DNA from: Actinomycetota bacterium | GTDB taxonomy: Bacteria; Actinomycetota; Actinomycetes; Nanopelagicales; Nanopelagicaceae | Assembly: GCA_026392945.1 (NCBI GenBank) | Contig: JAPLBB010000052.1 | Location: forward strand, 1-64,000 | Length of the DNA stretch: 64,000 bases | Direction: 5' to 3' | Shown: positions 8,061-37,950 of the stretch, in pieces | How positions within the stretch are numbered: position 1 is the stretch's first letter | How the letters are laid out: every line of letters starts with the position of its first letter | Made by a program: the position numbers and the translations under genes | The notes under the pieces: generated by a model | What the model was told of the DNA's origin: nothing | The model's database searches: none | Seen by the model: only the letters and a program-made list of their open reading frames with translations

Positions 8061-8996
8061 GTGCCATTGATTGAATCTGAAGCAACGCTGATCGAGCGCC
8101 TACGCGAGCTTTTTCATACCCAGCTTCAATCCGGCGTTGAAGTTGGAATTGGGGATGATGCTGCCGTAATTTCTGCTTCCAAAAGCAAATTAGTTGCAAC
8201 CGTAGATATGGCAATCGAAGACGTGCATTTTAGGCGCGCATGGTCAACACCTTTTCAGATTGGCGCAAAGTTAACTACAGCAAACCTGGCAGATATCTTC
8301 GCAATGGGTGCAAAACCAAAATACTTACTAGTAGCCGCTGCAATCACAGAGACTAATAACTTGGATGTTGTTACCGAATTAGCTAACGGAATTAGATCTG
8401 TTGCAGATAAATTTGAGGTTGAGGTCATCGGAGGAGATTTAAGCCAGGGTGAAAAAATGAGCCTTAGCATCACCGCTCTCGGTGAGTTAGATACGAATCC
8501 AATACTGCGCAGTGGCGCAAAAGTTGGTGATCTAGTTTATGTTTCAGCACTTCCTGGCTTGTCAGCTGCTGGTCTTGCAATTCTAGGTAGAGGTTTAGAT
8601 CGACCTAGATATGTCGTAGAAGCACACTTAAATCCAAAACTTGCCGTTCCTAGCGCCTTAATTGCGGTGGCAACTTCCATGTGTGACATTAGCGATGGAG
8701 TAACAACTGATGGTTCAAATATCGCTAAGGCCTCTGAGGTAGATATAGAACTAAGCAAGCAATTGATTTCAAATGCTGCTGGTTTTAGTGATTTAAAAGA
8801 GTTAGCTGATGAATTAAATGAAGATGTATTTGATTGGATTCTTTCGGGCGGTGAGGACCACTTCTTCTTTGCAACGGTTGACCCTAAGAATGCGAAAAAT
8901 GAATTAGGGGTTCAAATTGGAGTTGTAAAGGAAGGTAAAGGACAGGTAACCCTTGATGGTGCAATTATTCAAAAGGCTGGGTATCAGCACTTTTAA
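8061..8996 (+). CDS. thiL: Thiamine-monophosphate kinase
   Basis: GIGDDAAVI, ATVDMAIEDVHFRR, GGDLSQGEKMSLSITALGE, CDISDGVTTDGSNIAKAS. Confidence 0.94.
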   Translation: MPLIESEATLIERLRELFHTQLQSGVEVGIGDDAAVISASKSKLVATVDMAIEDVHFRRAWSTPFQIGAKLTTANLADIFAMGAKPKYLLVAAAITETNNLDVVTELANGIRSVADKFEVEVIGGDLSQGEKMSLSITALGELDTNPILRSGAKVGDLVYVSALPGLSAAGLAILGRGLDRPRYVVEAHLNPKLAVPSALIAVATSMCDISDGVTTDGSNIAKASEVDIELSKQLISNAAGFSDLKELADELNEDVFDWILSGGEDHFFFATVDPKNAKNELGVQIGVVKEGKGQVTLDGAIIQKAGYQHF

Positions 8997-36084: not shown

Positions 36085-36630
36085 TTATGGCGCGCCATTA
36101 AGGGTGTAATCCGCAACATTCTTACTTAATTCCGTCAAAAAATGATTGTTTTGATCAATTAGAAATTTAATCATTTCCTGCTCTACCTGCTTTCCATCTC
36201 GGTCTATTACTCTCTGAAAGCCAAGATCTGGATCACAATCAACCCAGATTATTTTATTTATGTAAGGGCGAAACTCTCTCTGCGCAGCGCCAACTCCTTC
36301 TAAAATCAAGTAATTGGATTTTGGAATTGTTTTAAACTCAGTAAATCTGTTTAACTTCCAGTCAAACATCGGGTAAGAAACTGGTAATTGCTTACTTAAT
36401 GGCTCAAGTAATTGGGCTATCACTCGAGCAGTTAGTTTTTGCGATAGGGGATTATTCCAGCCATCATATAGATCATCCATATGAACAACACTTGATCCGG
36501 GTAGGTCATGCGCTAACTTAAGAGCCAGTGTGGTTTTGCCAGACCCTGCAACACCATCTATTGCAATTAAAATTGTGCTCTCATTTTTAATGCTATTAAT
36601 CTCTCGCAAAAGATTTTGGTAATCAATCAT
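36085..36630 (-). CDS. Uridine-kinase-like P-loop kinase (substrate unknown)
   Basis: Walker A IAIDGVAGSGKTTLALKLA; VVHMDDLYDGW; YLILEGVGA. Confidence 0.8.
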   Translation of the reverse strand: MIDYQNLLREINSIKNESTILIAIDGVAGSGKTTLALKLAHDLPGSSVVHMDDLYDGWNNPLSQKLTARVIAQLLEPLSKQLPVSYPMFDWKLNRFTEFKTIPKSNYLILEGVGAAQREFRPYINKIIWVDCDPDLGFQRVIDRDGKQVEQEMIKFLIDQNNHFLTELSKNVADYTLNGAP

Positions 36631-37198
36631 TTTGATATGTTCTAGATTCTCTATTCCAGCGAATCCATCCCCAAACAGCTATTATCGAGAAAATTACATA
36701 GAGAACTCCCGTTAGGTATAACTGCCCTTTAAAGTATTGGTAGGTATAGGCAGTATCGACAATTAACCAAAGAGGCCAAGCTTCAAATCGTTGCCAAATC
36801 ATAAGCAACTGGGCAATTACACTACCGACAAAACCAAACGCTTCAATCGCTGAAGATGCTGCGCCAATTTTTATTAGGATCGGCCACAGAGATATCGAGG
36901 CAATGCATAGAACGCCGATGATAAGTAGGCGCTGATTAGTAGTTGATTTTCTCGGTCTTGCCCCAGTAACTCCCCAGCCAAACCACCCCAATACTCCACC
37001 AGCAATAAAAATTAATTGAAGTGCACTGCTTGCGAAATATGCAGATTGATAAAATAGGACTGCATATAACAAACTACTCACTGCCCACCAAGGCCAGGTT
37101 GTTCGTGGCCCTAGTACACCAAGAATCACACCGATTAGTGAAGTGATGAATGCAGTTATTTCTAAGATAGAAATAGGAAACTCCTTTCCAATTCGCAT
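36623..37198 (-). CDS. PnuC-family vitamin/nucleoside transporter (probably PnuT-like thiamine transporter)
   Basis: LEITAFITSLIGVILGVLGPRTTWPWWAVSSLLYAVLFYQSAYFASSALQLIFIAGGVLGWFGW and IWQRFEAWPLWLIVDTAYTYQYFKGQLYLTGVLYVIF; start uncertain (ATG 37198 or a downstream non-canonical start). Confidence 0.85.
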   Translation of the reverse strand: MRIGKEFPISILEITAFITSLIGVILGVLGPRTTWPWWAVSSLLYAVLFYQSAYFASSALQLIFIAGGVLGWFGWGVTGARPRKSTTNQRLLIIGVLCIASISLWPILIKIGAASSAIEAFGFVGSVIAQLLMIWQRFEAWPLWLIVDTAYTYQYFKGQLYLTGVLYVIFSIIAVWGWIRWNRESRTYQND

Positions 37199-37278
37199 TA
37201 CCGAACTGGTCAACCGGTCGGTCTGTAGATCAGACCCTCTCAGCTAAATCTCTTAGCTCCCGTGGCACTTATCCTAGC
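37183..37278 (-). promoter_or_regulatory. TPP (thi-box) riboswitch-like aptamer upstream of and overlapping the PnuC-family gene
   Basis: Minus strand reads CACGGGAGCTAAGAGATTTAGCTGAGAGGGTCTGATCTACAGACCGACCGGTTGACCAGTTCGGTAATGCGAATTGG; matches TPP consensus blocks ACGGGaGC, gCTGAGAggG, TTGAACCtgatc...gGTAATGCgnnc. Confidence 0.8.
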
Positions 37279-37315
37279 ACAGGAAACCTAGATAAAAGGT
37301 GTATATAGTTTCCGT

Positions 37316-37648
37316 GTGCTTAAGTTTGGTTATATGGCAATGATCCTATTCACAGTATTTGGTTCATTCTGGCTTGAAATCGTTTTAAAGATAGGTGTGC
37401 TAAAAAGAGTTAAGCGAGTAATTTTCAGCATTCTGCCTGTAGCAATCTTTTTTTTAATCTGGGATGCATACGCAATCGACCGTGGTCATTGGTATTTTGA
37501 CCAGGACCAAATTCTTGGAATTTTTGGGCCATTTGATATTCCACTTGAGGAGTTTCTTTTCTTCACCGTGGTTCCAATGGCTGCGATTATGACTATTGAA
37601 GGAGTCAGAACTGTAAAGAAACATTGGAAGATTGGGGATGAGCAATGA
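37316..37648 (+). CDS. crtYc: Lycopene cyclase domain protein, CrtYc-like
   Basis: FLIWDAYAIDRGHWYFDQDQILGIFGPFDIPLEEFLFFTVVP, lycopene cyclase-domain motif. Confidence 0.9.
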   Translation: MLKFGYMAMILFTVFGSFWLEIVLKIGVLKRVKRVIFSILPVAIFFLIWDAYAIDRGHWYFDQDQILGIFGPFDIPLEEFLFFTVVPMAAIMTIEGVRTVKKHWKIGDEQ

Positions 37649-37950
37649 TCTATTCAGATATCGCGATCTTCGCTCTTCTATTTGCCGTTTTTTTTGATCT
37701 ATTTATTATTAAGACTCAACTACTGACTCGGGCTGCTTTTTGGACAAGCTATGCAATCATTTTGCCATTTCAGTTAATTACAAATTGGTGGTTAACCTCT
37801 CGCAATATTGTTATGTATAACCCGGATGCAATTATGGGCGTCCGGATTGCTTCTGCTCCAGTGGAAGATCTTTTGTTTGGTTTTGCTTTAGTGCTTTCAG
37901 TTATGGCAATGTGGGTTTACTGGGGTCGCAAAGGGCTGCAAAGAAAGTAA
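37645..37950 (+). CDS. crtYd: Lycopene cyclase domain protein, CrtYd-like
   Basis: LPFQLITNWWLTSRNIVMYNPDAIMGVRIASAPVEDLLFGFALVL; overlaps crtYc by 4 nt. Confidence 0.9.
   Translation: MIYSDIAIFALLFAVFFDLFIIKTQLLTRAAFWTSYAIILPFQLITNWWLTSRNIVMYNPDAIMGVRIASAPVEDLLFGFALVLSVMAMWVYWGRKGLQRK

Follow-up and report, generated by a model that had tools for sequence, protein, structure and literature searches.

The stretch of DNA analysed here (the window) comprises 64,000 nucleotides from an actinobacterium of the Nanopelagicaceae (assembly GCA_026392945.1, contig JAPLBB010000052.1), the genome being a draft of 69 contigs. The minus strand of the window carries a gene encoding a PnuC-family transporter, followed by a P-loop kinase gene and preceded by a leader with the hallmarks of a TPP riboswitch aptamer (Table 1). 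The transporter is matched by PF04973 with 113.4 bits (cut-off 27.3; E 1.5e-32) and by TIGR01528 with 49.9 bits, above the cut-off of that profile, which NCBIfam names nicotinamide riboside transporter; PDB 4qtn is a distant match. In the latter two scans (TIGR01528 and 4qtn) the reference had one extra N-terminal residue, from which no effect is expected. The nearest PnuC among the relatives in the genus is 74% identical to that of the window. The kinase is PRK06547-like and related to uridine and nicotinamide riboside kinases; its match to NF005115 (1.4e-27) lies below the cut-off of that profile, and a homologue follows pnuC in nearly all of the family loci that were fetched.

Table 1. Features of the pnuC locus and of the thiamine pathway in the window genome
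Feature	Position	Strand	Basis
-10 box TAGGAT of the pnuC promoter	37271-37276	-	conserved hexamer in the genus
Variant TPP-type aptamer (P2, P3, P3a, continuous P4-P5)	37188-37264	-	RF00059, covariation, R1 model
P2 5' strand CGG, paired with CCG 37217-37215	37260-37262	-	identical in 60/60 variants
P3 hairpin GCTAA/TTAGC	37243-37257	-	both-side changes in 4/5 pairs
J3-2 UGAGA, pyrimidine-binding T-loop	37238-37242	-	invariant across 60 pnuC-linked variants
P3a hairpin	37220-37237	-	both-side changes in 3/4 main-helix pairs
Continuous P4-P5 helix CCAGUUCG-GUAAUG-CGAAUUGG, without J4/5 internal loop	37188-37209	-	RF00059 alignment, covariation
L5 loop GUAAUG, containing AUG 37198-37196	37196-37201	-	UAAUGC invariant in 60 aligned variants
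Shine-Dalgarno (SD) AAAGGAG, directly 3' of P4	37181-37187	-	read from the sequence; relatives have similar AAAGG(A/G)G motifs
AUU start codon of pnuC (most likely)	37172-37174	-	aligned codon in relatives
PnuC-family transporter of 183 aa, predicted to be a thiamine transporter of PnuT type	36623-37174	-	PF04973, TIGR01528
P-loop kinase, 8-base overlap with pnuC, predicted thiamine kinase	36085-36630	-	NF005115-like
thiL, thiamine-monophosphate kinase	8079-8993 (C40)	+	TIGR01379, 235.4 bits

The three TPP aptamer blocks that a preliminary description had singled out in the leader are all found on the minus strand by inspection, namely CACGGGAGC at 37264-37256, AGCTGAGAGGG at 37245-37235 and GGTAATGCG at 37202-37194, the last of which contains an ATG starting at 37198. 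The same description had proposed a search with the Rfam TPP model (RF00059); a match covering the whole model was obtained at 37273-37168(-) with an E of 1.2e-7, though its 45.1 bits miss the gathering cut-off of 54.3 bits, and a default Rfam scan of the leader reports nothing. Seven Rfam matches to the leader are returned up to an E of 10, TPP being the sole one with an E below 0.6, and RF00059 has no other match in the draft genome. The variant model (R1), whose training set includes the window sequence, gives 97.3 bits at 37177-37264(-). The TPP-class leader before pnuC is genuine and beyond chance and, as had been described, it overlaps the translation start of the PnuC-family gene.

Two start codons had been considered for this gene. 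The SD is followed by the 6-nt spacer TTTCCT and by ATT at 37174-37172(-), and it is exactly at this codon that the relatives carry their canonical start: in the alignment of 26 genus copies the codon is ATG in 24, TTG in one (L022, genome G016) and ATT solely in the window, the N-terminus reading MSxLE in nearly all of the copies. The AUG in the aptamer (37198), on the other hand, is ruled out as the pnuC start of the family because a stop intervenes between it and the conserved codon in 7 of the 26 copies. From the alignment, pnuC of the window most likely starts at AUU, barring an assembly error for that T. Such an error, by which an ordinary AUG would appear as AUU, is a serious possibility, if one short of an even chance: ATG prevails among the relatives and the genome is a draft, but against an error stand the otherwise undamaged frame and the TTG of one relative at the same codon. 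The layout itself, earlier regarded as unusually compact, is no peculiarity of the window; it is the norm in the family, and a THI element before pnuC has been reported in the acI lineage (PMC5301498).

The secondary structure of the leader was assessed over 60 pnuC-linked relatives, in which 96.5% of cells are paired and 11 pairs are changed on both sides. Doubly changed cells amount to 126, against 36.6 in shuffled alignments (0 of 500 shuffles were as high), and slid controls gave much lower values than the real alignment. Helices P3, P3a and P5 are backed by this covariation; P2 never varies in the 60 sequences and hence lies outside the reach of the test. The motifs UGAGA, ACC and UAAUGC are invariant in the same alignment. 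UGAGA corresponds to U39-A43 of E. coli thiM and has a pyrimidine-binding role (PMC3764141, PMC7824784). Nearly all of the 26 genus sequences share a TAnnAT-like hexamer that precedes ACGGGAG by 6-8 nt; since this -10 box seems to leave no space before P2, a closing P1 helix is unlikely, and the pnuC transcript would begin at about 37265, at P2, without P1.

The most conspicuous departure from the TPP riboswitch concerns the J4/5 loop. In the RF00059 alignment of the window the deletions fall on the J4-5 and J5-4 positions. Equivalents of U59, G60, C77 and G78 are missing from the window as well as from the pnuC-linked set, and covariation in the 60 relatives extends to the pairs that have taken the place of the loop. 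On the 5' side of the former loop there are zero unpaired nucleotides, whereas some family members retain a few on the 3' side, variable in length and sequence and without a conserved sequence. In E. coli thiM these four are the conserved nucleotides of J4/5 (PMC7824784, PMC3764141): C77 and G78 bond the pyrophosphate of TPP (PMC7824784), and in another account a metal ion is held by G60, C77 and G78, G78 making a direct contact (PMC3764141). Judging from the covarying P4-P5 helix and the invariant UGAGA, ACC and UAAUGC, it is the phosphate pocket alone that is gone, with no loss of the pyrimidine pocket or of the L5 contact. The leader thus shares with RF00059 the elements P2, P3, P3a, UGAGA and the UAAUGC of L5, as well as its place before a putative thiamine-uptake gene, but it scores under the gathering cut-off, lacks the J4/5 loop and, it seems, the space for P1, and has a continuous P4-P5. 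Because the pyrophosphate loop is deleted, the pnuC leader is, by its sequence, a variant TPP-type aptamer and not an ordinary TPP aptamer.

Imported thiamine needs to be converted into TMP before ThiL can act on it. In the window genome ThiL alone is present among the four families searched, TPK, ThiC and ThiE not being found. Likewise, 22 mostly complete genomes all encode ThiL and none of them TPK, ThiC being present in one (G271) and a clear ThiE in three (G057, G059 and G271). Genomes with pnuC have ThiL but none of ThiC, ThiE and TPK. As TPK is absent, ThiL is present and a step from thiamine to TMP is needed, the kinase adjoining pnuC may be a thiamine kinase that stands in for TPK. The context of the thiamine pathway expected around a PnuT, that is a TPP-type leader and thiamine auxotrophy, is present, and the genes downstream of the leader likely form an operon for thiamine uptake and phosphorylation.

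The element is found before pnuC in 25 of 25 genomes of the genus, once in each genome except for one with two copies of both, and its RF00059 score is under the Rfam cut-off in every one of them. The named relatives are Candidatus Nanopelagicus, Planktophila and other Nanopelagicaceae (acI lineage). A survey of the order covered 296 genomes, every one of them from this family; R1 matched 275 of them and the PnuC profile (A1) 263; a strong R1 match and pnuC occur together in about 257, the match lists having been compared by hand, and pnuC occurs without R1 in four (G051, G143, G168, G263). In sixteen genomes pnuC is lacking and R1 matches no more than weakly; the matches examined in detail are canonical TPP switches with an intact loop, located before thiC, thiO, ABC substrate-binding proteins or a cytX-like permease. 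In two further genomes, G065 and G265, a canonical-type match is accompanied by nothing closer than a distant PnuC. Among the family members examined, canonical loops occur only on genes other than this pnuC. Downstream of canonical switches in sister genomes (L137, L145, L146, L148-L151 and L153) there is a CCCGTG(CC)-like sequence, complementary to CACGGG of the aptamer and to GGCAC near the next SD, likely a translational expression platform.

Beyond the family, 395 genomes of the class were searched with R1, a model which favours loop-less sequences, so that the counts do not amount to frequencies. Scores above 60 bits are confined to Nanopelagicaceae and a second family (f39), in which the gene is again pnuC with a kinase. 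Switches whose loop is shortened or lost lie before a cytX-type permease in some genomes of family f14 (L207, L208, L210, L222-L224; the TIGR02358 match of the permease is below its cut-off), before thiO in f33 (L215, about 118-270; L259; genomes G545 and G372), and in f32 before pnuC as well as an ECF-type transporter gene. Canonical switches are found on cytX in another f14 genome (L232) and on pnuC in f34 (L242), and the two f33 genomes have two or three of them each, besides the loop-less one. Given such forms in f14, f32 and f33, loop loss has apparently occurred on more than one occasion, without being tied to a single type of gene. The idea that it marks uptake genes alone was dropped, in view of the thiO switches with shortened or lost loops.

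The reading that I regard as somewhat better than evenly probable is that of a TPP-derived riboswitch which controls the translation of a thiamine-uptake operon (a PnuT-type transporter and a kinase) and has lost its phosphate loop. The RNA would begin at the promoter without P1. The aptamer retains the pyrimidine pocket along with L5, the loop of the tertiary contact, and its continuous P4-P5 helix ends directly before the SD. Upon binding of a ligand in the pyrimidine pocket, the aptamer would fold and the ligand-held P2 and P4 would hide the SD together with the AUU/AUG start, which lies 6 nt further on; with no ligand bound, the SD would be exposed and the transporter made, as expected of translational OFF control, and the kinase would make thiamine phosphate for ThiL. 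Thiamine would be the substrate of the transporter, and the need for a diphosphate would have been relaxed or lost. When 26 leaders were folded freely and under constraint, SD pairing was of similar size in both states and no clear switch from SD-open to SD-closed forms, conserved among the leaders, emerged; these models neither support nor exclude a ligand-held occlusion of the SD. Counting against the proposed riboswitch are the loop-less thiO switches in another family, whose genomes also carry canonical ones, and the name that NCBIfam gives to PnuC.

As to the preferred ligand, thiamine or TMP comes close to an even chance; TPP bound in another way is given a substantial but smaller share, HMP or no ligand at all taking the rest. 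It is proposed tentatively, at somewhat less than even odds, that the leader is a natural thiamine/TMP riboswitch, evolved from a TPP riboswitch by closure of the loop into a helix, in acI and a few other actinobacterial families.

The most durable alternative, weighty though less than evenly probable, is that the leader is still a sensor of TPP, only the make-up of J4/5 having changed and the diphosphate being held by other contacts, for example by the purine-rich GGAAA beside P4. It would agree with the retention of every other invariant position of the TPP aptamer, with the canonical switches that genes of these same types bear in further families of actinobacteria (pnuC in L242, cytX in L232) and with the loop-less forms before thiO; yet the four phosphate-pocket nucleotides are missing, the 5' side is fully paired and the 3' side is variable. 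Moreover, in published analogue data a lower phosphate charge costs two to four orders of magnitude (PMC7824784), which weighs against a TPP sensor devoid of the loop. Against the preferred reading, in turn, it counts that known TPP aptamers bind unphosphorylated analogues far more weakly (PMC7824784), for which reason some phosphate contact may persist in an unseen form. Alternatively, the leader might be a decaying TPP riboswitch, unresponsive to any ligand and retained merely as an mRNA leader, as the scores under the Rfam cut-off throughout the genus, the apparent lack of space for P1 and an expression platform that is not clear could suggest; this is improbable, for covariation is strong, the pocket is near-invariant family-wide, and decay would not have left UGAGA and L5 intact while neatly closing J4/5 into pairs. 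Slightly less probable again is a nicotinamide riboside transporter whose leader senses an NAD-related ligand, suggested by the TIGR01528 score, the resemblance of the kinase to uridine and nicotinamide riboside kinases and the NAD+-II riboswitch (pnuC motif) that likewise precedes other pnuC genes (PMC7749635), but at odds with TPP as the sole Rfam match below an E of 0.6 (NAD+-II being absent up to an E of 10), with the retained pyrimidine pocket of TPP, and with a thiamine auxotrophy and a ThiL without TPK that would leave thiamine uptake otherwise unexplained.

The diphosphate preference of TPP riboswitches is due to one small loop. A loop-less form spread over a whole family, beside canonical ones in sister genomes, is a natural experiment on the change of ligand of a riboswitch. 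In most freshwater lakes the acI bacteria are, by one account (PMC5301498), more abundant than any other group; they rely on external vitamin B1, and the ligand of the uptake switch decides their response; the loop-less switch may sense a different form of the vitamin. Along the same line, the HMP-PP riboswitch (thiS motif) responds to a thiamine-pathway ligand other than TPP; going by the title of PMC6478431, its aptamer is embedded in a terminator, and it is not among the seven Rfam matches of the leader. The THI element of PMC5301498 is the same element, before the same gene and in the same lineage, and the gene was proposed there as PnuT; the available passages of that paper give neither structural detail of the aptamer nor the start codon, the kinase or the argument from ThiL. 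In the open-licence literature, to which the search was limited, no report of a loop-less TPP riboswitch was found, nor any of the missing loop in the acI pnuC leader, as distinct from the published THI element.

Farther upstream, the conserved CTATAGACAA was considered as the -35 box of pnuC and rejected, since its spacing varies. Together with its counterparts in relatives, this sequence (37281-37330) probably provides the -10 region for the divergent lycopene cyclase (carotenoid) genes at 37316-37950 on the plus strand.
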